From an uncultured Bacteroidales bacterium (lineage in GTDB: Bacteria > Bacteroidota > Bacteroidia > Bacteroidales > Muribaculaceae), in NCBI GenBank assembly GCA_902800715.1, contig CADCFN010000002.1, forward strand, positions 310,001 through 374,000: a stretch of 64,000 bases of DNA. Reading direction: 5' to 3'. The position numbers and the translations under genes are program-made. Under the pieces are notes generated by a model. It searched no databases and was not told the origin of the DNA. It saw nothing but the letters and a program-made list of their open reading frames with translations. The number at the start of each line of letters is the position of its first letter. Positions within the stretch are counted from its first letter, which is position 1. Shown here piece after piece: positions 37,397 to 50,690 of this stretch.

Positions 37397-37966
37397 TCAA
37401 TCAGTTGCACTGGTACATACCGTGCAAACGTATTTAGAGGTCACCATCGTATCAAACCGATAGCGGTGTGCCTCGTTGAGTACCGATAATAGATTTTCAT
37501 CGGCAAGTCCTTGTCCTGTGAGTTTCAACAGGCTTTCTTTCATTGTCCACAAGCGGATAAATTCTGTGGCAGGTTGCTTTGATGCAGCAATCCTGCGGCA
37601 TTCGTCGGCATTCATCATGTGATGCAGCAACGACTCGTCATATCGGTCGATGCTCTCCACGTCAATCCCCACAGGATGCGGGGCTAGCACACAAACAGCC
37701 GCATCACGACAATGGCTCAGGTTAAAGTGGATGTCGGGAAAGCCTTCAAGCCGTGGCTTTCCTTTTGGCTCAAAGACAAACCGCGGCACAGAATCCATGC
37801 CGTACTCCAACGACAATGCCCGTTTCAAGAGTAAATAAGAAGCCACCGACAGGCGACGGTCCAATTCTTGAACATATTGCATGGCATAGTCACGCCGTTG
37901 AGCACTTACGGCAGCCAAAGCCGCCGTCAGATCAAAATCCCAAATATGGTCGTCAACATATATCAC
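37397..37966 (-). CDS. 4'-phosphopantetheinyl transferase, Sfp-like
   Basis: The 189-residue protein carries the phosphopantetheinyl transferase signatures: KGKPRL...HFNLSHC, VGIDVESIDR and FIRLWTMKESLLKLTGQGL (the Mg-binding Asp/Glu residues and the WxxKE(S/A)xxK motif). It moves the phosphopantetheine arm of CoA onto carrier-protein serines. The start is GTG and overlaps the MATE exporter by 4 bases (GTGA). As the last gene of the NRPS operon it presumably activates the two carrier domains of the synthetase. Confidence 0.9.
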   Translation of the reverse strand: MIYVDDHIWDFDLTAALAAVSAQRRDYAMQYVQELDRRLSVASYLLLKRALSLEYGMDSVPRFVFEPKGKPRLEGFPDIHFNLSHCRDAAVCVLAPHPVGIDVESIDRYDESLLHHMMNADECRRIAASKQPATEFIRLWTMKESLLKLTGQGLADENLLSVLNEAHRYRFDTMVTSKYVCTVCTSATD

Positions 37967-39294
37967 GTCTTCAACTTGAACTGGATGTGTCGTCCCTTGT
38001 GCAGAACGAAAATGACGGCGACCTCAATCACATAGGCAATGAGGTAACTGTACCAGAGGTACTGCGGCATGAGCTTGCCCATGAACCAGAGCACGGGAAT
38101 GACTGTGAGCGACAAGGCAAACGAGATAAACAGAGCCATTCTATGCTGATTATAGAGTTTATAGACTATCATCAGCACATAGATGTAACAGAATGGGATG
38201 AAACTCAGGGCAAAAATCCTCAATGCGGGCACACTCTGGTGCAGCATTTCGATTTCATCACAGCCGAACACGTGGGCGATGCTCTGTGGGAATATCCACA
38301 CCAACAAGCATGTAACCAGCATCGACACTGTAATGAAACGGAAACCGCGTTTAATCACCGTGCGTAAACCTTCTTCATCTCCCTTACCCACCTGAATGGC
38401 GCCAAGAGACTGCAAAGTCTGACAAGTACCCGACAGGAACAAGTTATAGAGTTGAAGCAGGTTCATACATAGAGCGAACACAAAAATTCCCGTTCGTCCC
38501 AACGAGGACAACACAATCGTGTTTGCCGACAGTAACAATAACGTGAGGCAGATTGATGCCACTGCTAACGGGGCACCCTGAGAGATGATGCGCCGCAACG
38601 AGGACGACAGGCCATCGGTAGAGAAAACAGGCATCAGACGACGCTGCTCTGGCTTGCTCCAATGGCTCAACAGAATAGCAATGCCCACTAAATGACCTAC
38701 TACCGTTGCTGTGGACGAACCCGTAATACCCCAACCAAACCATTGAATAAATACTATATCGAGCAACAGATTGACCAGATTGTCGATGATTACAGCTACC
38801 GACACCAGACGCGGACTGCCGTCAACACCCACCATGGTCGATAAGCCCCACATGAGAATGAACGCGGGATTACCGATGAGCAGCACCTGCATATAATCGT
38901 CAGCCAGCGGCAGAATCTGTTCATTGCTACAGAGCAAGCGCGCCGTCTCATGAGGGAACATCATGCCACCGATAATCGCCAGCAACACACCAAACCCAAG
39001 ACTCAACGACAGAGCGCGTGTGAAGAAACGTCGTGCCTCGTCAATCTTGTGCTGTCCTAACGCATAAGCCACCAACATACCCGCACCTGCATTGATGAGC
39101 AGGTGCAGGGTAAAGATGAACTGGGTGATGGGCGTTGACAGGTTAATGGCACTCACGCCATCCTCGCTGATGAGGTTGCCCACGATAATGCCGTCAACCA
39201 CGGTGCCCAAGCAACCTGAGAGCGCTACTAGAATATAAGCCCACAGGTAGCGGTAGAACTGGGCATTGATATTGTCACTTGAGGGTTTCACCAT
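37963..39294 (-). CDS. MATE-family exporter
   Basis: This 443-residue, 12-helix membrane protein of the MATE family opens FYRYLWAYILVALSGCLGTVVDGIIVGNLISEDGVSAINLSTPI, the repeat typical of the family. MATE proteins export cations and small organic molecules by H+ or Na+ antiport. It lies 9 bases after the NRPS gene and 4 bases into the PPTase gene. The simplest reading is inner-membrane export of the NRPS product and self-protection of the producer. Confidence 0.9.
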   Translation of the reverse strand: MVKPSSDNINAQFYRYLWAYILVALSGCLGTVVDGIIVGNLISEDGVSAINLSTPITQFIFTLHLLINAGAGMLVAYALGQHKIDEARRFFTRALSLSLGFGVLLAIIGGMMFPHETARLLCSNEQILPLADDYMQVLLIGNPAFILMWGLSTMVGVDGSPRLVSVAVIIDNLVNLLLDIVFIQWFGWGITGSSTATVVGHLVGIAILLSHWSKPEQRRLMPVFSTDGLSSSLRRIISQGAPLAVASICLTLLLLSANTIVLSSLGRTGIFVFALCMNLLQLYNLFLSGTCQTLQSLGAIQVGKGDEEGLRTVIKRGFRFITVSMLVTCLLVWIFPQSIAHVFGCDEIEMLHQSVPALRIFALSFIPFCYIYVLMIVYKLYNQHRMALFISFALSLTVIPVLWFMGKLMPQYLWYSYLIAYVIEVAVIFVLHKGRHIQFKLKT

Positions 39295-39303
39295 AGCAGC
39301 TGT

Positions 39304-42300
39304 TTATTCAAAGAAACCAAAGCCGCTAATGGCGTTCAACATGCGCTCCACATAGTCCCATGACGTGGGTGACCAAGCGAAGTCATAGCGATAGAGTACC
39401 TGGGTGGTATAGTTGTTATCGCGCTTCACATCGGCAGTCTTCTGTCCATGCGCCATATCCTGATATGCCAGCAATGACGACATTGACTTGGCCTTGACGG
39501 GATCGTTCTTGGCCTCTTCCATTCTTTGATCGAATTCCTCCTGCTCGACGAACTTCACGCCATCACCCACACTGCTCAATTCCATAAGCACATCACCCAG
39601 GAATTGGCCATGGATGTTGTAGGGATGGAATACCGTGCAGTCCTTTGGCGATGAACTCAGCAGCACAATGGCATGTGCCACCTCGTTGATGGGCGAGAAT
39701 TCCACCTGCAGGTTGCGCATGGCGTGCGGACAGCAGCCCAGCATGTTATAGACCTTGATGCGGCCCATAAACGAGTTGGTAGCGAAGTTGGCCTGGAACT
39801 CACCGTCGGTGGAACGAGCAGCCAGGTTGCCCACACGCATAATCTTGGCATTCAATCCATGTATCGCCACAGCATTGAGAATCAAGCGCTCGGCCATAAA
39901 CTTGGAATAGATGTACTTGTTACCCAAGAACTGTCCCATATAGAGGCGCTGCTCGGTGAAAATGTCATTTTTCACCTCACCGGCCCACAGGCCTCGGGTG
40001 CTGGCAGTGGAAACGTGAACGAGTTTTGCGCCGGTCTTGACGCAGTAGTCAACGCAGCGTTGAGCGCCACCGATGTTCACGTCTTCAATCTCAGTGCCCT
40101 CGCTGAAGTGTTTCACAATAGCAGCACAGTTGAATATCGTGTCCACCTTCAGACCTTCACTAAAGTCGCTGGTCACATCGCCCAAGACAACATGCAGGCG
40201 ATTGCCGAACAATTCCTTGAACGAATCTGAGAAATAGTAGAACAGCAGTGTGCGCAGTCGGCTCTCGGCTTTTTCCAGCGTTTTGCCACGCACCAGGCAA
40301 TAGATGTTCCGGGCGTCGGAATCGATGAGTTCGCGCAGGATGTGGATTCCCAGATAACCCGTGGCACCCGTCAGCAACACATCACCCAACTGCTGGCGCT
40401 CGCCCTTGCGGAAGTTGTCGAGCGTGTTGCGCAACAGCAGGTTGTTGATGGCAGTATAGTCAAATCCTGTAATCTCATCATTCGCTTCATCACCGCTTTC
40501 GCCTGTGATGAGTCGAGCAAGTTTGCGAGGTGTGGGATTGGCAAACACGTCACCATAAGCCACATGCAGGCCTGCCTTGTCAGCCTCGATGATGACACGC
40601 GTCACGACAAGCGAAGTACCGCCCAATTCAAAGAAATTGTCGGTAGCACCCACCTTGTCCATCTGCAGGATATCGGCAAAGATGTCGCAGAAGGCGCGCT
40701 CGGTATCATTAGCAGGCTCTACCTGTGCCGAACTGATTGCCAATTCGGGCTCAGGAAGCGCCTTGACATCGGTCTTGCCGTTAGGCGTCATAGGCATCTC
40801 CTTGAGTTGCAGATAAGCCGTCGGCACCATGTATTGTGTCAGGCTCTTGGAGATTTCAGCCTTGAGGGCATCGGGAGCAATCTCGCGGTCGGCAGTGTAA
40901 TAGGCACACAGGTGCTCCTTGTCGTTAATCTTGCGGATAAGGATGACTACCTTCTTCATGCCCTCGACCTTAAGCATCACATTCTCAATCTCGCCCAACT
41001 CGATGCGCAGACCGCGCAACTTAATCTGGTGGTCGGTACGGCCCAGGATAACCACGTCACCATCGGGCAGCCACTTGGCATAGTCACCCGACTTGTAGAT
41101 GCGTGTGCCGTGGTAATCCACAAAGCGCTCACGCGTCATCTCATCCAGATTGTTATAGCCATGAGCCACGCCACGTCCACCGATGTAGAGTTCACCGACG
41201 ACTCCGACAGGCAACTCGTTGCCATCCTGGTCAACGATGTATTCAACCACATTCAGCTGTGGCTTGCCCACTGTCACCACATCGGCATGAGTCAATTCCT
41301 TATTGTTCGATGCCACGGTAATCTCGGTGGGACCATAGCAGTTAAAGATTCGGGCCTTGGTGACCTTGCGCAACTGTTCCAACAGCTGGTCGGAGAATTT
41401 CTCACCACCGGCACGCACAATGTCGATGCGACTGATGGCGTCGCAGAAGTCCTCGCTCGTCAACCATGTCATCCAGCGCGATGGCGTACCCGATACCATG
41501 TTGATGTGCTCATCGTTGATAAGGCGCGCCAAATCAAGCGGATTATTGGCCTGTTCCTCGGTTGCCACAATGAGTGTCTTGCCATTGAAGTATGCCGTAC
41601 CGATATCCTGCAATGCGGCGTCAAACGAGATGGTTGTCACGCTCATGATGCGCTTGGCATCGGTCAAGACACCATTGGCAAACACATTGGCGGGATGACC
41701 GTACAGGTAGTTACAGATGCCCTTGTGGTGCAACATCACTCCCTTGGGACGACCTGTCGAACCACTGGTATAAATCAAGTAAGCCAGGTCATCGGGCGTG
41801 ATATCGGTGACGATAGTACCGTCGTTATCATCGTTGATGAGTTCTTCCACATCGATTGCCTTACCCTCGGGAACGGAATCCATTCGGTCGGCTGTTGTAA
41901 TGATGTAACGAGCTTCGCTGTCCTCGAGAATCAGTTTCACACGGTCAGCGGGATACTCGGGATCACAGGGGATGTATGCGGCACCTGATTTCAATACGCC
42001 GAACAAGGCAAGAATCAGTCGGCTGGTTCGGGGCAGCAACAAGGCTACACGGTCACGCTCTTGCACACCGCGTTTCCTCAAGGCGGCAGCAATGCGGTTG
42101 GTCACCTCGTTCATCTCCTGATAAGTGAAACGGCCATCAATGGCAACAAGTGCCTCATGTTCAGGCTGCTCCTGAGCAAAGTGGCCGATGCACTCATGGA
42201 AGAACTTGAACGGAGCATCACCCGTTGCGGTCTGCCGCAGGTGGCTCAATTCCTCTTCCTGGGCCTCGCTGACAATGGAGAGCTGGCGCAAGCGCCTCTG

Positions 42301-45300
42301 GGGATTCTCCATCATCAGGTTAGCGACAGCGACGATGCTCTCGGCAAGTCCGCGTCCCACGCGCTCGCTATAGATGGAGTCATCATACTCGACAACCACG
42401 CCACAAGATTCAATTTTGATATTGATTTTGAATTTGGGGACATTCAGTTCGAGCACTTCATGATCAATGGGCTTGCCATTTACGGTATATTGTGAGAGTA
42501 TACCCACCTGATATGCGTAGGCTATCGCAGGACGGAAAGCGTAATCGGTGGCAATGCGTGCAAACGGATAGTCCTCATGACGCAGCGTCTGATCAAATGT
42601 GTCGCTGGTCTGTTTCAGGAAATCACCCACGGTCACGTCATCGATGCTCAATCCCAGGGCAAGTGTATTGACAAACATGCCCACAGTGTCGGCAACCTTC
42701 AGGTTGCTGCGGCCGCTGCTCACGGTGCACAAGTATACCTCGCGGTTGTTGGTGTAGCGCGAAATGACGTAGGAAGTGGCTGCCAGGAACAGATGGGCGG
42801 GCGTGATACCCTGCTCGCGGCAGAATGCAGTCGCCTTGTCCAGGTCGGCAGGACAAACCGCTTCGCCGATAAAGCCTTGTTCGTCACTCTTGGGCAGGTC
42901 GGCGGGTATTTCGCTGGCTCCCTCACAAGTCTGCAACTTCTCGGCAAAGAATCGTTGTGATTCCTTAAAGGCATCGGTTTCCTCAGCAGCCTGTTGGTCG
43001 TGGACAAATTCCAGGTAATTGTAGGCTTCCTTCTCCACCTCTTTGCCTTCGACGGCAGCATTGATTTGGCGGATTAACAGGTCGGCTGAACCACCGTCAA
43101 ATACCAGATGGTGTAAATCCATCAGCAGATAAACGCCAGCAGGCGTCTTGACTACCTCGACGCGGTATAGCGGCGGCTTCTGTAAATTGAACGGTCGCAC
43201 GAACTCATTCTTGTATTTCGCCAATTCCTCCTCACTCATCTCGGTGATGCCCACCTCGACGGGAACACTGTCATCAGTCGTCTGGATGATGGTATCGCCC
43301 TCGGTCGTGAAGTGGACGCTCAATTCGGGATGTGACTCGATGACGCGTTTCATAACATCGGCAAGGACGTTGGCATCAGTGCCCTCGGGATAAGAGAGCA
43401 GATAAGGGATGTTATAGATGGTGGAGGCTGGATTCTTCAGGCAGTCGAAATAGACACCCGTTTGGGCGTAGGACAATGGCGCGCTGGTAATCACCTTGGC
43501 TTCGGCCTTGGGCTTTTCGGCAGCAGGTTGAGCACCACCGGCGAGCATTGCCTTCAGAATTTCGTTCTCAATCGACTGGACAGTACCTGTCTTCACTAGA
43601 CTGCGAGAGTCGAGGGTCACGCCGTAGCGCTTGTTGACCTGCACAGCCAGCTTGATGGCCGAGATTGAGGTCAGACCCGCATAGCCCAATGGCGTAGTGA
43701 CGCCAAAGTCGGTGTTGTTGACAACGTCGGCAACAATCTGGTGCAGTTCCTCTTCCAACACGTTCATGGGCACATTGACGGCCTCGACTGCAGCAGCCTT
43801 TTTCTCGGGCTTGGGCAGGGCCCGCTTGTTCACCTTCTGATTTTGGTTCAAGGGGATGGCGTCAATCTGCATGGTAACGGCAGGCACCATGTAGGGCGGT
43901 TTCTCGTCCATGATGAAGTTGTTCAACGCCTCGATATCCACCTTCTCGTCGCTCACGATATAGGCCGCGATGAACTTGCCGCCACCTTCCTCGTCAAAGG
44001 CCTGTACCGTAGCATCCTTGATGCCCGGGAACTCTCGGATGATGCCCTCGACTTCCTTCAACTCGATGCGGAATCCGCGTATCTTGACCTGACCGTCACG
44101 GCGTCCCACAAACTGGATGTCACCCGTGGGCAGGAAACGCACGATGTCACCCGTGCGATAGATACGGGAATATTTTTCCTCGGTGGTGAAAGGATTGGAG
44201 ATATAGACTTCGGCTGTCTTCTCGGGGCGATTCAAGTAGCCACGACTCACTTGAGGACCTGCAGCCAACAATTCACCCGCTGCTCCCACGGGAAGACGAT
44301 GGCCCTGTGGGTCAACGATGTACAAGCGCACGTTTTTCGGTGCTCTGCCGATAGGAATATCCTTCATCTTCTTATCGACAAGATAGTTGGTAATGAATAC
44401 CGTCGTCTCGGTGGGACCATAGATGTTGTAGAACTTGAAACCCTGGGGTGGCGTTAATGAAGCCAGTTTTTCACCGCCAGCCGAGAGATACTTCAACGAG
44501 TGGTTTTCTACACTGGTAGCGAACTGGTAAGCCACTTGCGTTGTCATGAACGAGTGGGTGATGCCATTCTGGTCAAAATACTCGTTGAGGGCAAGAAGGT
44601 CGAGACGCAATTCTTCGGGAATGATATATAGTGTAGCACCGCAAGTCAAAGCGGGGTACATATCCATCATGTTCGCATCAAAACCGTAGCTGGCATAGGC
44701 AGCCACTTTGCTTTCGGGCTTGAGGTCGTACATTTGATGGTAGCCGTGGCAGAAGGTCACAAGATTGCGGTGAATCAACTGGCAGCCCTTGGGTACGCCT
44801 GTCGAACCTGAGGTATAAAGCAGAATGAACAACTGGTCGGGGGTGATATCCACTTGGGGCGCTGCAGCGGCGGGAAGGCCCATGATGTCCTTGGTCAACA
44901 GCACTTCGCCCTGATACTCATCAACGATGGGACGCAATTCCTCATCGGCAATAAGCAGTTTGGCGCTAGCATCCTGCATCATGAAGTTGAGCCTCTCCTT
45001 GGGGTAACTCGGGTCGAGTGGCTGGTAGGCACAACCGGCCTTGAGCACGCCAATCGAGGCGATAGGCATCCACTCACATCGAGGAATGAGTACCGACACA
45101 ACATCCTCAGTGGCTAAGCCTTTGCCGGCAATATAGGCGGCAATTCGGTCGCTGATTTCGTCAACTTGGGCATAGGTAAAGCGCTTGTCCTTAAAAACGA
45201 CGGCTATAGCGTCGGGGGTGGCTTTGGCCTGCTGGCGTAACATCGACACGACGGTTTGACTGTCGTCATAATCCAGTTCACCTGAGTTGAAACTATCAAG

Positions 45301-46554
45301 GATGGCAACCTGGTCTGCATTGGCAATGTCGATGTCGCGCAGGTATTCCTGGGATAGGAAACCCTCGACCACAACCTCATAGCTCTCCAGAATCTGGTTA
45401 ATGAGTTCGCGCGAATACTCGTTGGCATTGTATTCAGCTTCGGCATGTATCTTGTCGTCCTGGAGGAAGACCTTCATGTAAAGTGATTCATCAAGCGTAT
45501 CGTAGCTAAGGCGAATCGATTGCAAGGGCTTGTCACCCATTGTCGCATTTTCAAACAATTTGCCGTGCCATGCGAACATCGAGTTGGTCTGCAGTTTCAA
45601 GTCTGCCATCAAGTCGGAGTAAGAGTACAACTCATGCTCACGACACCCGCTCATTTGGTCCTGTCCTTGTCGCACCAGCTCCAGGACTGTTGTCTCGTTG
45701 GTGAATTTGGCATAAACAGGCAGGGTTTTGACTGTCATGCCAATCGAACGGGCAAAGCGTTTGTCGGTACGACCATTATAAACGGTATTGAACAGACTTT
45801 CCTGCTCGTTATTGAACTTCGCCAGCAGGAAGGCATAGGCGGTCGTGAACAGCGTGCTCTTAAACACACCATTCTGTTTGCAGTAGTCATCCACACGCTT
45901 CAAGTCAATCGAGAGGGTGCGCAACATGCTATCCTTGCGGCGCTCAGGCTCTTCCAAGTCAGGCATGAATTGGGTGAAAGTGTCACCACAATCAAAGTTG
46001 GCTGCATACCATTTCTTTGCCTCTTCAAATGCTGGCGTTTCACGTCCATCGGCTTCGATTTGAGCCAGCTCCACCAGTGTCATCTCCTCAGGGGCAACTT
46101 CCTCACCGTGGTAGGCCCTGTCGATATCTTGTAATAAGACTAGCAACGAGGTGCCATCCGCGATAATATGATGAGTATCGATGTAGAGGTAATAGTGCTC
46201 GCAATCGCGCATCAGATTGATGTGAAACAGGCGTCCGCCATCGAGATCGAATGGATGCACAAGCCGCGTCTTTTCTTGCTCGATATCGGTAATATCCTCA
46301 ATAGCAAGCGACCACGGCTCTTCTGCCATGTCAATCGTCTGAATAGGCTCGCCGTCCTCATTCACTTTGATGCGGGTAAACAGGGCGGGATGAGCCTTGA
46401 ATGCCGTCTCGATGGCAGCCAACAGGCGTTCGCCATCAAGAGAACGGTCGATAATATGGATAAATGGTAGGTTATAGTAGAGTTCGCCTTTGTGGCCCAT
46501 ACATTCCACATAGATGCCAAACTGTGATTTTGATAAAGGTGCTGACTGTTTCAT
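39304..46554 (-). CDS. Two-module non-ribosomal peptide synthetase with terminal thioester reductase
   Basis: The 2416-residue enzyme has domains C1 (HHIIADG near residue 130), A1 (LLYTSGSTGVPKG near 580), PCP1 (GLTSIS near 963), C2 (HHLVFDG near 1148), A2 (LIYTSGSTGRPKG near 1600), PCP2 (FFELGGTSL near 1978) and a Rossmann thioester reductase (TGATGYLG near 2063, YIYSK near 2215). The reductase instead of a thioesterase predicts NAD(P)H release of a dipeptidyl aldehyde, which can cyclise to a pyrazinone or imine. By eye the specificity residues are D-A-M-Q-L-A-I-V-F-K (A1) and D-A-Q-S-V-A-C-V-A-K (A2); I do not assign substrates. The starter C domain may acylate the first residue. The ATG is the only good start. 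Confidence 0.95.
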   Translation of the reverse strand: MKQSAPLSKSQFGIYVECMGHKGELYYNLPFIHIIDRSLDGERLLAAIETAFKAHPALFTRIKVNEDGEPIQTIDMAEEPWSLAIEDITDIEQEKTRLVHPFDLDGGRLFHINLMRDCEHYYLYIDTHHIIADGTSLLVLLQDIDRAYHGEEVAPEEMTLVELAQIEADGRETPAFEEAKKWYAANFDCGDTFTQFMPDLEEPERRKDSMLRTLSIDLKRVDDYCKQNGVFKSTLFTTAYAFLLAKFNNEQESLFNTVYNGRTDKRFARSIGMTVKTLPVYAKFTNETTVLELVRQGQDQMSGCREHELYSYSDLMADLKLQTNSMFAWHGKLFENATMGDKPLQSIRLSYDTLDESLYMKVFLQDDKIHAEAEYNANEYSRELINQILESYEVVVEGFLSQEYLRDIDIANADQVAILDSFNSGELDYDDSQTVVSMLRQQAKATPDAIAVVFKDKRFTYAQVDEISDRIAAYIAGKGLATEDVVSVLIPRCEWMPIASIGVLKAGCAYQPLDPSYPKERLNFMMQDASAKLLIADEELRPIVDEYQGEVLLTKDIMGLPAAAAPQVDITPDQLFILLYTSGSTGVPKGCQLIHRNLVTFCHGYHQMYDLKPESKVAAYASYGFDANMMDMYPALTCGATLYIIPEELRLDLLALNEYFDQNGITHSFMTTQVAYQFATSVENHSLKYLSAGGEKLASLTPPQGFKFYNIYGPTETTVFITNYLVDKKMKDIPIGRAPKNVRLYIVDPQGHRLPVGAAGELLAAGPQVSRGYLNRPEKTAEVYISNPFTTEEKYSRIYRTGDIVRFLPTGDIQFVGRRDGQVKIRGFRIELKEVEGIIREFPGIKDATVQAFDEEGGGKFIAAYIVSDEKVDIEALNNFIMDEKPPYMVPAVTMQIDAIPLNQNQKVNKRALPKPEKKAAAVEAVNVPMNVLEEELHQIVADVVNNTDFGVTTPLGYAGLTSISAIKLAVQVNKRYGVTLDSRSLVKTGTVQSIENEILKAMLAGGAQPAAEKPKAEAKVITSAPLSYAQTGVYFDCLKNPASTIYNIPYLLSYPEGTDANVLADVMKRVIESHPELSVHFTTEGDTIIQTTDDSVPVEVGITEMSEEELAKYKNEFVRPFNLQKPPLYRVEVVKTPAGVYLLMDLHHLVFDGGSADLLIRQINAAVEGKEVEKEAYNYLEFVHDQQAAEETDAFKESQRFFAEKLQTCEGASEIPADLPKSDEQGFIGEAVCPADLDKATAFCREQGITPAHLFLAATSYVISRYTNNREVYLCTVSSGRSNLKVADTVGMFVNTLALGLSIDDVTVGDFLKQTSDTFDQTLRHEDYPFARIATDYAFRPAIAYAYQVGILSQYTVNGKPIDHEVLELNVPKFKINIKIESCGVVVEYDDSIYSERVGRGLAESIVAVANLMMENPQRRLRQLSIVSEAQEEELSHLRQTATGDAPFKFFHECIGHFAQEQPEHEALVAIDGRFTYQEMNEVTNRIAAALRKRGVQERDRVALLLPRTSRLILALFGVLKSGAAYIPCDPEYPADRVKLILEDSEARYIITTADRMDSVPEGKAIDVEELINDDNDGTIVTDITPDDLAYLIYTSGSTGRPKGVMLHHKGICNYLYGHPANVFANGVLTDAKRIMSVTTISFDAALQDIGTAYFNGKTLIVATEEQANNPLDLARLINDEHINMVSGTPSRWMTWLTSEDFCDAISRIDIVRAGGEKFSDQLLEQLRKVTKARIFNCYGPTEITVASNNKELTHADVVTVGKPQLNVVEYIVDQDGNELPVGVVGELYIGGRGVAHGYNNLDEMTRERFVDYHGTRIYKSGDYAKWLPDGDVVILGRTDHQIKLRGLRIELGEIENVMLKVEGMKKVVILIRKINDKEHLCAYYTADREIAPDALKAEISKSLTQYMVPTAYLQLKEMPMTPNGKTDVKALPEPELAISSAQVEPANDTERAFCDIFADILQMDKVGATDNFFELGGTSLVVTRVIIEADKAGLHVAYGDVFANPTPRKLARLITGESGDEANDEITGFDYTAINNLLLRNTLDNFRKGERQQLGDVLLTGATGYLGIHILRELIDSDARNIYCLVRGKTLEKAESRLRTLLFYYFSDSFKELFGNRLHVVLGDVTSDFSEGLKVDTIFNCAAIVKHFSEGTEIEDVNIGGAQRCVDYCVKTGAKLVHVSTASTRGLWAGEVKNDIFTEQRLYMGQFLGNKYIYSKFMAERLILNAVAIHGLNAKIMRVGNLAARSTDGEFQANFATNSFMGRIKVYNMLGCCPHAMRNLQVEFSPINEVAHAIVLLSSSPKDCTVFHPYNIHGQFLGDVLMELSSVGDGVKFVEQEEFDQRMEEAKNDPVKAKSMSSLLAYQDMAHGQKTADVKRDNNYTTQVLYRYDFAWSPTSWDYVERMLNAISGFGFFE

Positions 46555-46592
46555 ATATATCTAGAGTTTATGAGTTAATTCAAGAGATTATT

Positions 46593-47939
46593 TTACCATT
46601 TGGTCGTAAAAATGCGGGGATTGACACTCAATCCAATCCAACCCCAACGCAGGGAGCTATTGTTAGAACTACGCTTCAGGCGTTCCATTGTTTCACCCCC
46701 CGACATAAATGACGCACCAGCCATCAAGCCCACATCACGAGATATGGCATAGGAGGCTTGAAATTCAAACTCGTGTCCCAGGGACATGTCCAGTTTATCG
46801 AGTTTAGTCGCTGTGGCTAAGTAGTGATAGCTTGCATCAAATTTGAGGCCCTTTATGGGACTGAAGAATCCACCGACATAGATGTTCTGCAAACCAGGGG
46901 TAAAGCCATGCATGTAGGTGCTCACGTAGAAGAAGTCCATAGCACCATAAAACTTGTGGTGAGAACCATAAACGGTACTAAATCCCCTAATTACATCATG
47001 AAGTACCATGCCAATATGACCCTCCTCGGGAACAGCAAAGTACTTGTCACCGCTCAAATAGTCATATCCTAACACAAAACCGTAGGTGGGTTTTGGAGAG
47101 AACGCAACCTTGCCACTCGCCATCCACGCATCGATTTTCATACCTCTCTCATTCTTACCCATCTGGTGGTAATAGGAAGCCTCGACATTCCAGCGTTTAG
47201 GTCTGAACGACAGGTAGCCACCCAGCAGTTGCTGGAACCAGGTTTTATGTTTCAAATGATTTTCGTCCTCGTTTTGCATGCCGATGTTCATGAACAACAC
47301 CGATATGCCCAAGGGAAACTTTGGAAGGTCATAATGATACCACACGTCCTGCATCGTCTTGTAGGGTTGTGCACCATTAAAAAAATTGGTGTTGCCATCA
47401 AGCACTTCGGCATTCTGGTTATAGGCAAAAACCACATGTGCCCTGTGTCCGTGGCCTTCATACCCCACTCGCAGTACATCGTGTGATTGTGATGCCATCG
47501 CCCAATCATCCGAGCCGATGATACGCTCGTCATCATAGGAAAGCGCTACCCTACCCACTTGGGCGAACAGGCCACAGCGGGCAGTCAACTTAACCCATGT
47601 CTCATATAGATTGAAGGCACCTTTTCCCGCTTGTCCCCAAATACCTGAATGCTGAGGCGTGACACGGGCTTCAAGCCAGTCGCGCTTGTAATTGATGGCC
47701 AAGCGAGTTCGGCTCAGCAAGAAACTTGATTTAGCCACTCCACTGCTTTCTTCCTCTTTTTGGTCGTCCGCTTCGGGCAACATGCCGCCGTAACGAGTTT
47801 CTCCACGGCCAAAGAACTGCAGATCCACCGTCAGTTCATTCTCTTTCTCGGGAATGCTGTCACTTGCAGGCTGTGCCACAAGCATCAACCCGGGTAGCAC
47901 CAATGCTGCGAGTAGCCATCGTCTAATGCTCGTATTCAT
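46593..47939 (-). CDS. Outer-membrane beta-barrel, alginate-export/porin-like
   Basis: The 448-residue protein has a signal peptide (MNTSIRRWLLAALVLPGLMLVAQP). Many alternating amphipathic strands rich in Tyr, Phe and Trp follow (SRTRLAINYKRDWLEARVTPQHSG; QNIYVGGFFSPIKGLKFDASYHYLAT), ending in IGLSVNPRIFTTKW. This resembles the alginate-export (AlgE) family of outer-membrane channels. It lies 38 bases before the NRPS gene and 28 after the STAS gene, all on the same strand, so it could carry the NRPS product across the outer membrane. That role is an inference from position. Confidence 0.75.
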   Translation of the reverse strand: MNTSIRRWLLAALVLPGLMLVAQPASDSIPEKENELTVDLQFFGRGETRYGGMLPEADDQKEEESSGVAKSSFLLSRTRLAINYKRDWLEARVTPQHSGIWGQAGKGAFNLYETWVKLTARCGLFAQVGRVALSYDDERIIGSDDWAMASQSHDVLRVGYEGHGHRAHVVFAYNQNAEVLDGNTNFFNGAQPYKTMQDVWYHYDLPKFPLGISVLFMNIGMQNEDENHLKHKTWFQQLLGGYLSFRPKRWNVEASYYHQMGKNERGMKIDAWMASGKVAFSPKPTYGFVLGYDYLSGDKYFAVPEEGHIGMVLHDVIRGFSTVYGSHHKFYGAMDFFYVSTYMHGFTPGLQNIYVGGFFSPIKGLKFDASYHYLATATKLDKLDMSLGHEFEFQASYAISRDVGLMAGASFMSGGETMERLKRSSNNSSLRWGWIGLSVNPRIFTTKW

Positions 47940-47967
47940 GTTAAAATATTATGGAGTAGTACAGCAA

Positions 47968-48270
47968 TTATTCGACCTCGAAAAGACTAATCAGTCCTGT
48001 CATCTGAAAGACATTCTTGATGTCGTCATTCATATTGCGCAAGGTCACCTTGCTTCCTGCAGCTTTTGCACTCTTGAGAATGCCCAAGAGAATGCGCAAA
48101 CCACTCGAAGCGATATACTCCAAATTCTCACATTCAATGACGATGTCACGGCCCTCACTCTTATAAAGAGGTTGCAGTTCCTTTTCAACTTCAATCGCTG
48201 CGGCGGTATCAAGTTCGCCTTCAAGAGTGGCAACAATCTTGCCCTCCAGTTCTTCAATGCTTGTTTTCAT
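47968..48270 (-). CDS. STAS-domain anti-sigma factor antagonist
   Basis: The 100-residue protein is one STAS domain of the SpoIIAA/RsbV type: VATLEGELDTAAAIEVEKELQPL, then DIVIECENLEYIASSGLRILLGILKSAKAAGS, where the phospho-acceptor serine of the (D/A)SSGL motif is visible. It should bind a HATPase-type kinase when unphosphorylated and release a partner. It follows the SpoIIE-type gene by 14 bases, and that protein carries both the matching phosphatase and kinase-like domains. Confidence 0.9.
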   Translation of the reverse strand: MKTSIEELEGKIVATLEGELDTAAAIEVEKELQPLYKSEGRDIVIECENLEYIASSGLRILLGILKSAKAAGSKVTLRNMNDDIKNVFQMTGLISLFEVE

Positions 48271-48284
48271 TTGTTTGTTTTTGA

Positions 48285-50501
48285 TTATGATTTATATTTC
48301 TTTTTCAATGTTAATACATTCTTTCCGTTAATCCACTCATAGTTGATGGAATCCATGAGCTCCCTCACCAGGAAAATGCCCAAGCCACCGATAGGTCTAT
48401 CCTCGGCGGACAATGTGGTATCGACTTTGCCAGCCTCGGTCGGGTCAAACGGATTTCCTGAATCACTAATGACAAAGGTAACAGTCGTTCCGTTGGACTT
48501 TGCTTCTACCAAGATATCACCCACTGTGTCTAAAGGATAGGCATAATCTATCACATTGACGACAGCTTCCTCGACGGCCAGCTTAATCTTGGATTTTAGC
48601 GAAGGTTCCATTTCCAGGCTGGAGGTAAACGATTCCACAAACTTGTTGAGTTCCGGCACATGTTTCAGGTCGTTCTTCAAAGCTAAAGAATCGTGCAACA
48701 AGCAATTCTCGATGCCAGGTGTATAACGAATTGCCATCAGGGTCAAGTCATCGCTCTGGGTGGCACCATTGACAAAATCTTCTACAGCGATACTTACTGA
48801 CTGCAGCATTTCCTCAAGCACCACATTATCCATTCCACAGTAACGCTCTAACGTATCAAAAGCGCGCTGCAGTCCGAACTGGTTATGCTGCTTGTCCATC
48901 GCCTCGGTCAATCCATCGGTGTAAAGGAACAATGACGTGCCAGGTTCTATACAGGCTTCTTGGCCCTCATATTGATAATCATCGATGACGCCTAAAGGAA
49001 GATTGGCTTTAACAGGCAGCAGCTTCACATCCTCTTTTCCGATAACTATGGGGGCATCATGTCCTGCGTTACAATACCGCAGGCGTCCCGTCGGCAAATC
49101 CAGTACACCGATAAAGAAAGTCACAAACATGTTCCTGTCATTATTCCGGCAGGCTGTTTCGTTGATAATCCTCATGACGTAAGCGGGGTTACTCTCATGT
49201 GAGGAAGTGGAGAAGAAAAGGGCGTGGGCAACCGACATCACCAGAGCCGAGGGCACTCCCTTACCGCTCACATCACCGATACAGAAGAACAACTTCTCGT
49301 CACGGACAAAGAAGTCATAGAGGTCGCCGCCCACCTCCCTGGCAGGCTTCAGCAGACCCAGCACGTTGATATCGTCACGTTCGGGGAAGGAGCCACTGTT
49401 CAGCGGTAGCATCGACATCTGCAATTCTCGGGCAATGCGCAACTCGCTGCCAATTCGTTCCTGCTCGATGCTGGCAAGGTGCAGGTTGCGGGCGTTGCGG
49501 GCAAAGCGGTACACGATGAATCCTAACAGAGCCATTGCTGCCAGCATCGACAGCAGCAGCATATAACGCATGCGATTGAGTGGGCCATACACTTCCTTGT
49601 CATAGCACACGATAGCCAGTTGCCAGTGGGGTTTACCCTTCATGTTGGCATAGAAGATGTAACCCACATCACCATCAATATTCGAGCGGAACTCAATCAC
49701 CTTTGTGAGCCCGCTGCTACTCTGTTGCCTCGCCACCGTACTGTCGTTGATGAGCCGCACCACCTGGTCCACATCATCGACATTTGCGTGTTGGGGGCTG
49801 GGTTTACAGATCAGACTTCCCGATTCGGTTAACAACAGGTCAAACGATGAGGGATAGGCTTGACGGGCATTCAGCGTGTCGCTGAGCCAGTCGAGCGAGA
49901 CGTCGATGGCAAACACACCTGCCAGCCGACCCTGTCGGTCCTTCATCGGCATGGCGTGGGTGGTAATGAGCATCTCTCGGTTGCTGTAGTTGGTGCTGTC
50001 GATATAGGGGTCGGTCCAATTGGGCTCTCCCAACTCGACGGTGTTTGCATAGAACGCCATCCGCGTGTAGTCGTGGGTTGCGCTGGCAATCTGTTGCGAC
50101 ATCGACCTTCCCTGTTCCATCTTGGCGAACAACTCAAACAGGCTGTCCCTCGATGAATAATAGCCTGGCGTGAAGGCCATGCCCGCACTCAACACGTCGG
50201 GGTTGGCGTCAACCATGAATTGCAACTCGCTACCCACCAAGTCGGGGTTGGCAAGCGTGGATTGGATGTTCCAGCCGTAGTCATACAACAACTGCTCTGT
50301 CTTGTTAAGCATACCCTTAATCAAGATGGCTTTAAACCACATCTGTGCCTCGGCACGACGCTCCAACTCACGCTCCACCACACGGTGGGCATTGTAATAC
50401 TGCAGCGCCGAAATCAATTCCAGCAGCACAGCAGCACAGATGATAACGCCCAGGCTGTTCCTGATTCTGGACGACCGCAGTATCTTTTTAAGCCAATTCA
50501 T
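48285..50501 (-). CDS. Cache-sensor SpoIIE phosphatase fused to an RsbW-like ATPase
   Basis: This 738-residue protein is a membrane sensor. A helix (about 16-36) and a large periplasmic Cache-type domain (about 45-305, with PNWTDPYIDSTNYSNREM and GVFAIDVSLDWLS) precede a second helix (about 314-334). A short coiled linker and a PP2C/SpoIIE phosphatase follow (about 375-595, REVGGDLYDFF, GDVSGKGVPSALVM, NAGHDAP, LYTDGLTEA). A HATPase domain ends it (about 610-735, EEAVVNVIDYAYP, DSGNPFDP, GGLGIFLVRELMD). Phosphatase and kinase in one chain would set the phosphorylation state of the adjacent STAS protein. It is the first gene of the unit running into the NRPS genes. Confidence 0.9.
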   Translation of the reverse strand: MNWLKKILRSSRIRNSLGVIICAAVLLELISALQYYNAHRVVERELERRAEAQMWFKAILIKGMLNKTEQLLYDYGWNIQSTLANPDLVGSELQFMVDANPDVLSAGMAFTPGYYSSRDSLFELFAKMEQGRSMSQQIASATHDYTRMAFYANTVELGEPNWTDPYIDSTNYSNREMLITTHAMPMKDRQGRLAGVFAIDVSLDWLSDTLNARQAYPSSFDLLLTESGSLICKPSPQHANVDDVDQVVRLINDSTVARQQSSSGLTKVIEFRSNIDGDVGYIFYANMKGKPHWQLAIVCYDKEVYGPLNRMRYMLLLSMLAAMALLGFIVYRFARNARNLHLASIEQERIGSELRIARELQMSMLPLNSGSFPERDDINVLGLLKPAREVGGDLYDFFVRDEKLFFCIGDVSGKGVPSALVMSVAHALFFSTSSHESNPAYVMRIINETACRNNDRNMFVTFFIGVLDLPTGRLRYCNAGHDAPIVIGKEDVKLLPVKANLPLGVIDDYQYEGQEACIEPGTSLFLYTDGLTEAMDKQHNQFGLQRAFDTLERYCGMDNVVLEEMLQSVSIAVEDFVNGATQSDDLTLMAIRYTPGIENCLLHDSLALKNDLKHVPELNKFVESFTSSLEMEPSLKSKIKLAVEEAVVNVIDYAYPLDTVGDILVEAKSNGTTVTFVISDSGNPFDPTEAGKVDTTLSAEDRPIGGLGIFLVRELMDSINYEWINGKNVLTLKKKYKS

Positions 50502-50534: not shown

Positions 50535-50542
50535 CAAAAGTA
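50535..50542 (-). promoter_or_regulatory. -7 box of the SpoIIE/STAS/barrel/NRPS unit
   Basis: TACTTTTG on the minus strand lies 34 bases before the ATG of the SpoIIE gene. No ideal -33 TTTG is present; an ATTG lies 23 bases upstream. Confidence 0.45.
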
Positions 50543-50643: not shown

Positions 50644-50690
50644 GAAAAAGAGTCGCGCCACACATCCCGTGGTGTCGGGAGCGTGGCGCG
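50644..50690 (-). terminator. Terminator of the secreted-protein gene
   Basis: On the minus strand CGCGCCAC and GTGGCGCG pair around an inner TCCCG/CGGGA stem. GACTCTTTTTC follows. Confidence 0.75.

Follow-up and report, generated by a model that had tools for sequence, protein, structure and literature searches.

We analysed a 64,000-nucleotide stretch of DNA, hereafter called the window (contig CADCFN010000002.1, positions 310,001 to 374,000, from an uncultured Bacteroidales bacterium of the Muribaculaceae). In this window, six minus-strand open reading frames (ORFs) code for a SpoIIE-type switch protein, a STAS protein, an outer-membrane barrel, a non-ribosomal peptide synthetase (NRPS), a MATE exporter and a phosphopantetheinyl transferase (PPTase). 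The likely function of the set is the production and export of a small peptide resembling protease inhibitors. A switch of this type often adjoins such NRPS genes in several bacterial groups, which suggests that it governs the timing of synthesis or release of the compound. The ORFs and their main domains are the following, with C, A, T and R denoting condensation, adenylation, carrier and thioester reductase domains.

48285..50501, minus strand: SpoIIE-type switch protein of 738 aa, with a transmembrane helix, a PDC/dCache sensor, a second transmembrane helix, a PP2C domain and an RsbW-like HATPase domain
49572..50381, minus strand: predicted extracytoplasmic sensor of the SpoIIE protein (aa 41-310, approximate limits; PF22673, 58.3 bits, aa 93-207)
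48723..49301, minus strand: PP2C phosphatase domain of the same protein (PF07228)
48300..48677, minus strand: RsbW-like HATPase domain of the same protein (PF13581)
47968..48270, minus strand: single-domain STAS protein (Pfam STAS, 60 bits)
46593..47939, minus strand: outer-membrane barrel, predicted AlgE fold (Alginate_exp PF13372, 32.7 bits for a cut-off of 25.2)
39304..46554, minus strand: NRPS of 2416 aa, C-A-T-C-A-T-R according to Pfam
45265..46554, minus strand: N-terminal C domain of the NRPS in starter position (approximate limits), HHxxxDG motif intact, no module upstream
39304..40374, minus strand: terminal R domain of the NRPS (NAD_binding_4, 118.9 bits)
37963..39294, minus strand: MATE exporter of 443 aa (PF01554 MatE, 108 bits, the sole family matched)
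37397..37966, minus strand: Sfp/AusB-type PPTase (ACPS, 50.3 bits)

The positions of the six ORFs and the gaps between them (14, 28, 38, 9 and -4 bases) are as given in an earlier note on this DNA, and Pfam backs the identities proposed there for all six proteins.

In the NRPS, Pfam recognizes a single NAD_binding_4 domain and two each of the condensation, AMP-binding and PP-binding domains. The N-terminal C domain was missing from the description in the earlier note. The HHxxxDG motif is found in both C domains, the serines of both T domains and the Asp and Lys residues of the A domains are all present, and Tyr2214 (the tyrosine of the YxxxK motif, in YIYSK) and Lys2218 of the R domain are invariant in nine aligned sequences, that of the window included. 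As judged from its sequence, the protein has the two modules and the reductase of the dipeptide-aldehyde type, catalytic residues included. Its R domain matches 6vtj (E 9e-69) and the AusA reductase 4f6c (E 2e-33) in the PDB. AusA (NF047350) is the best NCBIfam match of the whole NRPS, with 1145.7 bits for a cut-off of 2500, and the PPTase scores 68.9 bits with the AusB model, under the cut-off of 225.

A product cyclizing to a pyrazinone, as put forward in the earlier note, would require a free-amine dipeptide aldehyde, as for aureusimine, and would be compatible with all the readings of the control discussed below. In favour of such a product, among solved R domains only 6vtj/6vtz are closer than the AusA reductase, and AusA is the best NCBIfam match. 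However, AusA is described as A-T-C-A-T-R (PMC12153313), while the window NRPS has an additional, intact N-terminal C domain, and in the account of Leahy et al. (2010, PMC2812497) domains of this kind are often linked to N-acylation. An N-acylated peptide would have no free amine to cyclize, and hence the additional domain, whose starter position is assigned from its location and not from C-domain typing, disfavours a pyrazinone. We consider that product unlikely and an N-acylated aldehyde likelier; reductase release may also yield an alcohol.

Motif anchoring gave the A-domain codes DAMFLAIVFK and DAQSVACVAK, read at what we take to be the GrsA positions; no substrate prediction is claimed from them. 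The second code reads DAQS[VAC]ACVAK both in the window and in 19 loci (L067 to L087), whereas members farther away have other codes. The HHxxxDG motif of the first C domain is altered in the related loci L085, L087 and L089. Three other loci (L091, L249 and L225) code for NRPSs of approximately 3000 aa with an additional adenylation-like domain ahead of the first C domain; that of L091 has two carrier-domain matches only. An acyl-loading role was considered for the N-terminal domain in L091 and L249, but amino-acid adenylation domains fit it as well as acyl-CoA ligases do. Lastly, a protein of approximately 450 aa with weak AMP-binding similarity is encoded next to the NRPS in four loci (L084:2793-4136, L091:9990-11336, L106:15555-17153 and L112:7321-8667). 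It is over the Pfam cut-off in L106 only, and those of L084 and L112 resemble F390-synthetase-related ligases below the cut-off. This AMP-binding-like neighbour may supply a cap.

Switches made of SpoIIE, RsbW-like and STAS proteins are best known from the control of stress responses and sporulation. In the window, the SpoIIE (157-161 bits), HATPase_c_2 (90-94 bits) and PDC sensor (58.3 bits) matches all lie in one chain, whose two transmembrane helices were called by eye. Profile searches of the PDB with this protein matched Rv1364c, the 3lic sensor, the SpoIIE phosphatase and RsbW. Residues D393, D410, D529 and D585, which we take to be the metal-binding aspartates of the PP2C domain, are invariant in ten aligned sequences including that of the window, as are E645, N649 and G705-G708. 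The N box, DxG and GGLG motifs of the HATPase are present in the window protein and in most SpoIIE copies. Ser55 of the STAS protein is kept in all 16 aligned sequences, window included, and aligns with the serine of SpoIIAA (chain 1auz); the equivalent serine of RsbV/SpoIIAA is phosphorylated (PMC4517449). The window thus has the predicted parts of a partner switch, namely a PP2C phosphatase, an RsbW-type GHKL kinase domain and a STAS protein with a predicted phosphoserine. No separate anti-sigma kinase was found: the SpoIIE protein is the sole HATPase_c_2 match in the assembly that contains the window (G000, 88.9% complete).

Over 19 clusters, that of the window included, the NRPS has the highest mean pairwise identity of the four parts compared (76%), ahead of STAS (64%), PP2C (56%) and the sensor (42%). 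A fast-changing sensor beside a similar product would be expected if the cue varies by species, and given the PDC/dCache sensor the control by an extracytoplasmic cue put forward in the earlier note, which did not specify the level at which it would act, is plausible. Pairwise identities correlate between SpoIIE and STAS (Spearman 0.83) and between NRPS and SpoIIE (0.80), which shared ancestry alone could explain. The same-strand neighbour of the STAS gene, in 50 cases, is SpoIIE in 36, the barrel in 18 and the NRPS in 17. In L073:3290-5514 (G222), the SpoIIE gene occupies two overlapping frames of 561 and 201 aa, owing either to a true frameshift or to an error of assembly.

The earlier note had proposed a genome search for co-occurrence, and its outcome links the switch to the NRPS. 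We collected SpoIIE relatives at E up to 1e-20 and NRPSs at E up to 1e-200 in 247 genomes of the family. A SpoIIE relative is present in 38 and the NRPS in 30, all of which have both (Fisher p 1e-31); among the 221 genomes outside the window's genus the numbers are 14, 8 and 8 (p 2e-11), both tests taking as independent genomes that are related. The two genes lie within 10 kb of each other in 28 of the 30 genomes, with a median of 1.7 kb for the measurable distances; they are 52 kb apart in G154 and on different contigs in G146. Within the window's genus (26 genomes sampled), SpoIIE and the barrel are found in 24 and the NRPS in 22. The barrel (E up to 1e-5) occurs in 26 of the 247 genomes, each of which also has a SpoIIE gene. 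According to the earlier note, SpoIIE, STAS and barrel genes always occurring without the NRPS would indicate two unrelated units. We found this arrangement in only two of the 26 barrel genomes, G164 and G156, the latter at a contig end. In contig 61 of G164 (L097), a SpoIIE-STAS-barrel set is accompanied by the PPTase gene, with approximately 53 bases in place of the NRPS and MATE genes.

The order SpoIIE-STAS-barrel-NRPS-MATE-PPTase is common among clusters close to that of the window, and the flanking genes differ among genomes. Other orders are barrel-SpoIIE-STAS-NRPS and barrel-NRPS-MATE-SpoIIE-STAS, and in G135 and G040 opposite-strand ORFs lie between SpoIIE and STAS. These arrangements rule out a strict operon as a general rule. 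Hence, the single unit proposed for the six genes holds in so far as the switch and NRPS genes form a conserved set, but as their order varies, it is better described as a conserved cluster than as an operon of fixed order. Two genus members have second SpoIIE-STAS pairs with a STAS protein of approximately 398 aa (L102 in G193 and L103 in G207); the L102 pair adjoins groEL.

We then considered NRPS loci from other bacteria, with taxa taken from the titles of the records, many of which are metagenome-assembled genomes, so that single labels may be wrong. Among the matches listed in a profile search of named genomes (80 of 585 stretches), SpoIIE and STAS genes are both present in 11 of 18 reductase-ended loci and in none of the 62 others. 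A sample of the L118 family (Lachnospiraceae by title) yielded NRPS matches in 24 of 250 genomes, and a sample of the order in eight of 393, the window's own genome included. Altogether, 72 reductase-ended loci were compared: 29 from the family of the window, 18 and L158 from the named genomes listed (which include Prevotellaceae possibly of the window's family), 18 from the L118 family and six from the order. We left out L083 (the SpoIIE contig of G146), L235 and L237 (the same places as L118 and L161) and L256; the near-identical L161 and L238 were both counted, as was the STAS protein of L155 (208 aa), encoded approximately 5 kb from the NRPS. PP2C and STAS genes are both present in 44 of these loci and at least one of them in 48, or 54 if MATE-HATPase fusions (see below) are counted. 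None of 66 NRPS loci without a reductase has PP2C, STAS or a fusion nearby, although most of these come from other taxa and only L244-L247 and L255 from the samples compared.

By source, PP2C or STAS genes are found in 27 of the 29 own-family loci, in five of eight from other Bacteroidota (among the matches listed) and in three of six from the order sample. The records of Bacilli, Clostridia, Lachnospiraceae, Roseburia and Coriobacteriaceae among the matches listed have them in seven of ten loci, or nine with fusions, and the L118 family sample in six of 18, or ten with fusions. These 28 loci of other phyla (10 named, 18 of the L118 sample) thus comprise 13 with PP2C or STAS and 19 with fusions counted. 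In a quick tree of the last A-T-R part, which has several long branches, all 54 switch or fusion loci fall in one clade of 64 loci (SH-aLRT 99), with titles from Prevotellaceae, Bacteroidales, Bacilli, Clostridia, Lachnospiraceae and Coriobacteriaceae. By record titles and sequence matches, the linkage between switch and NRPS spans Bacteroidota, Bacillota and Actinomycetota. No switch genes were found near any of the eight reductase-ended NRPSs outside this clade (L158, L236, L239, L241, L242, L243, L250 and L251), and the switch therefore seems to be characteristic of a single NRPS lineage.

Many sister clusters code for MATE proteins of 577-670 aa whose C-terminus is an RsbW-like HATPase domain. 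Of 11 MATEs scanned, seven are over the Pfam cut-off for HATPase, and further cases come from profile matches; L092, L093, L095 and L096 have the domain. These fusions adjoin the NRPS in 20 of the 72 reductase-ended loci (19 by a stricter rule). A structure model of the L113 fusion has a mean predicted local distance difference test score (pLDDT) of 84. Its 50 PDB matches listed are MATE and related flippase entries, and its HATPase part is consequently assigned from Pfam and alignment. The N box and DxG motif of the fused HATPase are invariant in 13 aligned sequences. When the L093 fusion was compared with the genome of the window, the window MATE came out best (306.6 bits, against 65.3 for the next protein), and it thus appears to be the orthologue minus the HATPase domain. 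In the tree, these data fit a loss of the domain on the branch leading to the clade of 30 rows that holds the window, as no MATE with the domain was found in that clade, some of its loci having no MATE in reach.

We also collected 20 fusion loci without an NRPS in the DNA examined (L287-L306); G725, G780 and G824 have an NRPS elsewhere, and G725 supplied two of the 20. PP2C or STAS genes are near the fusion in five of these, against 14 of the 20 NRPS-linked ones (Fisher p 0.01). The idea of the fusion as a link private to NRPS clusters is weakened by its frequency elsewhere and by the 15 of 20 such loci without PP2C or STAS nearby. The L287-L306 proteins look like members of a broader class of exporters.

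The barrel, predicted from its model to belong to the alginate-export (AlgE) fold, makes the outer-membrane transport proposed in the earlier note better supported, by both Pfam and fold matches. An AlphaFold model based on five sequences has a mean pLDDT of 60 and 17 strands, against presumably 18 for AlgE. Its 16 best PDB fold matches are all AlgE (E from 2e-11). The protein shares fold and Pfam family with AlgE of Pseudomonas, but the identity in the fold matches is 11-12%, and the window barrel is placed in an NRPS cluster. No barrel match was found in the NRPS loci of Bacillota and Actinomycetota; these bacteria have no outer membrane, and the absence is thus expected of an outer-membrane part.

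Several known systems share features with this cluster. The study of ruminopeptin reportedly describes a C-A-T-C-A-T-R architecture and N-acylation. The ruminopeptin (rup) pathway of Ruminococcus bromii is a gut NRPS pathway for dipeptide aldehydes, as predicted for the window (PMC12327764). Dipeptide aldehydes of gut reductase-ended NRPSs were reported to inhibit proteases (PMC12153313). AusA and AusB of Staphylococcus aureus resemble the window proteins in that they comprise a two-module, reductase-released NRPS with a similar R domain and a dedicated PPTase. In the description given, however, the A-T-C-A-T-R protein AusA has no N-terminal C domain, and only ausA and ausB are named there for the aureusimine cluster (PMC12153313).

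The earlier note knew of no NRPS wired to such a switch, but Leahy et al. (2010) described one, mru0068 of Methanobrevibacter ruminantium M1. Two serine phosphatases, an anti-sigma factor antagonist and a MatE protein surround it in mru0066-mru0071, and the authors proposed environment sensing, expression regulation and export for this cluster (PMC2812497). It is similar to that of the window in combining a two-module NRPS that has an N-terminal C domain with phosphatase, anti-sigma antagonist and MatE genes. It differs in belonging to an archaeon, in its two separate phosphatase genes and in that no barrel is mentioned in the account of the cluster (PMC2812497). The release domain of mru0068 is a thioesterase in the text and a thioester reductase in the legend of figure S8 (PMC2812497). 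A third M1 cluster, mru0513-0516, codes for a PPTase, a serine phosphatase, an anti-sigma factor antagonist and an anti-sigma kinase, and the remarks on other genomes name one Syntrophomonas homologue of the NRPS (PMC2812497). What is added here is the linkage of switch and NRPS across bacterial phyla and the RsbW-like HATPase ending on the MATEs of sister clusters. A literature search whose scope stopped short of barrel terms and most subscription papers found neither this cross-phylum linkage nor the MATE-HATPase fusion described for these clusters.

SypE of Vibrio fischeri is both a kinase and a phosphatase and is not known to have a membrane sensor. In the SypE-SypA pair, the target of the SpoIIE-type regulator is a STAS protein of a single domain, as in the pair predicted for the window (PMC4517449). 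Unlike the window protein, SypE is a response regulator (PMC3610818). SypA is reported to be active when unphosphorylated, with no evidence of anti-sigma antagonism and no identified client in that account (PMC4517449). This pair controls biofilm formation, whereas the window switch adjoins an NRPS; its precedent indicates that such a STAS protein can work without an evident anti-sigma role.

On balance, we lean towards the view that the six genes form one functional unit that would make and secrete an N-capped dipeptide aldehyde under a partner switch, the client of the STAS protein being part of the pathway. The PPTase would activate the NRPS, MATE would export the product across the inner membrane and the AlgE-like barrel would provide the outer-membrane part. 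An outside signal perceived in the periplasm would set the balance between the phosphatase and kinase activities of the SpoIIE protein, and hence the phosphorylation of Ser55 of STAS. Unphosphorylated STAS might then bind its client in the pathway, giving a sigma-independent switch that would gate export or synthesis. The exporter or the synthetase is more likely to be this client than a sigma factor, on account of the sole HATPase_c_2 match of the genome and of the RsbW-like domain fused to sister MATEs. The fusions make MATE the leading candidate, and the synthetase comes second because STAS directly adjoins the NRPS in 17 of the 50 cases. A more far-reaching proposal, which we hold to be possible rather than probable, is that a gut-associated NRPS clade of three phyla uses sigma-free switching, with STAS acting on the export or synthesis machinery. 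An ancestral MATE fusion would gate the release of protease inhibitors, and in the lineage of the window the kinase function would be left to SpoIIE and an AlgE-like exit added. Should a transporter prove to be gated by the switch, small-molecule export would join the processes under partner switching. The conserved sensor-phosphatase-kinase-STAS set offers a concrete handle on what triggers dipeptide-aldehyde production in the gut, with a single serine and a single sensor domain as targets for mutation.

Several observations weigh against the view that we favour. Ten loci of the 64-locus clade have no switch in the DNA examined, some of them at contig ends, and six of the 54 are counted for a MATE-HATPase fusion alone. 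The genomes G636, G634, G641 and G644 have 23, 22, 18 and 13 SpoIIE-profile matches, respectively, and adjacency is therefore weaker evidence there. The window MATE itself, with MatE alone in its 443 aa, has no C-terminal HATPase_c_2 domain. The fused HATPase of other clusters is devoid of most of the ATP-lid motif and so may not be a kinase, although it could bind STAS without kinase activity. Outside NRPS clusters, such fusions are also frequent in the Lachnospiraceae of the L118 family sample, where fusion-like matches occur in many genomes that have no such NRPS, with several per genome. Finally, the barrel was not matched in several Bacteroidota clusters (L091-L093, L095, L096, L111, L249 and L252).

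Other explanations must be set beside the pathway-client hypothesis. In classical transcriptional switching, STAS would free a sigma or transcription factor encoded elsewhere and turn the cluster on. The SpoIIE, RsbW-like and STAS domains are indeed those of the sigma-B and sigma-F circuits, and Leahy et al. proposed control of NRPS expression in the archaeal case (PMC2812497). Nevertheless, no transcription-factor gene was recognized among the recurrent members of the clusters, in which unmatched flanking ORFs were not annotated singly. Furthermore, a search of the 88.9% complete genome, which did not cover sigma factors, gave the SpoIIE protein as the sole HATPase_c_2 match. We therefore find this explanation rather doubtful, though it has a real chance of being correct. 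The switch might also run another process, with the NRPS genes as passengers of a moving island, given that flanking genes vary between genomes. Moreover, G164 retains SpoIIE, STAS, barrel and PPTase genes without NRPS and MATE, no NRPS was matched in eight of the family's 38 genomes with a SpoIIE relative, and SpoIIE-STAS pairs lie away from any NRPS in G193 and G207 (the second pairs of L102 and L103) and in G144 (L104). However, the genus members G095 and G173 are devoid of SpoIIE, NRPS and barrel together, a SpoIIE relative is present in all 30 NRPS genomes of the family, and the linkage recurs in other phyla, which makes passenger genes quite improbable. For a chance juxtaposition of two unrelated units, the sole argument is the variation in gene order. 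We rejected it as having a negligible probability, given the co-occurrence, the adjacency both in the family and across the 72 versus 66 NRPS loci, and the single clade.

Two features upstream of the SpoIIE gene concern the borders of the cluster.

50535..50542, minus strand: candidate -7 element TACTTTTG of a Bacteroidetes-type promoter, read from the sequence
50646..50690, minus strand: hairpin with U tract resembling a terminator, located past the end of the preceding gene and within a 76-nt fold

The 76-nt fold (-37.2 kcal/mol, z -5.88) sets the unit apart from the preceding gene. The candidate element TACTTTTG ends approximately 34 bases ahead of the SpoIIE start and was recognized from what we take to be the -7 consensus; the full two-box Bacteroidetes pattern has no exact match at this site. 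A terminator scan of the 15-kb region found no strong intergenic terminator inside the unit, in agreement with the earlier note; terminator-like matches numbered 19 on both strands, for 12.9 +/- 3.7 in shuffled sequences. A terminator considered at the barrel/NRPS junction is unsupported, as folding there is no better than in shuffles (z -0.23). A promoter between these two genes, which the earlier note had named as a sign of two separate units, did not appear in the form of an exact Bacteroidetes-type match on the minus strand, where one exact match sits within the PPTase gene. Over the whole window (1-64000), there are ten exact matches to the promoter pattern TTTG-N17..25-TANNTTTG, for 1.5 expected. 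A groEL gene is found one gene away from the cluster in the window.

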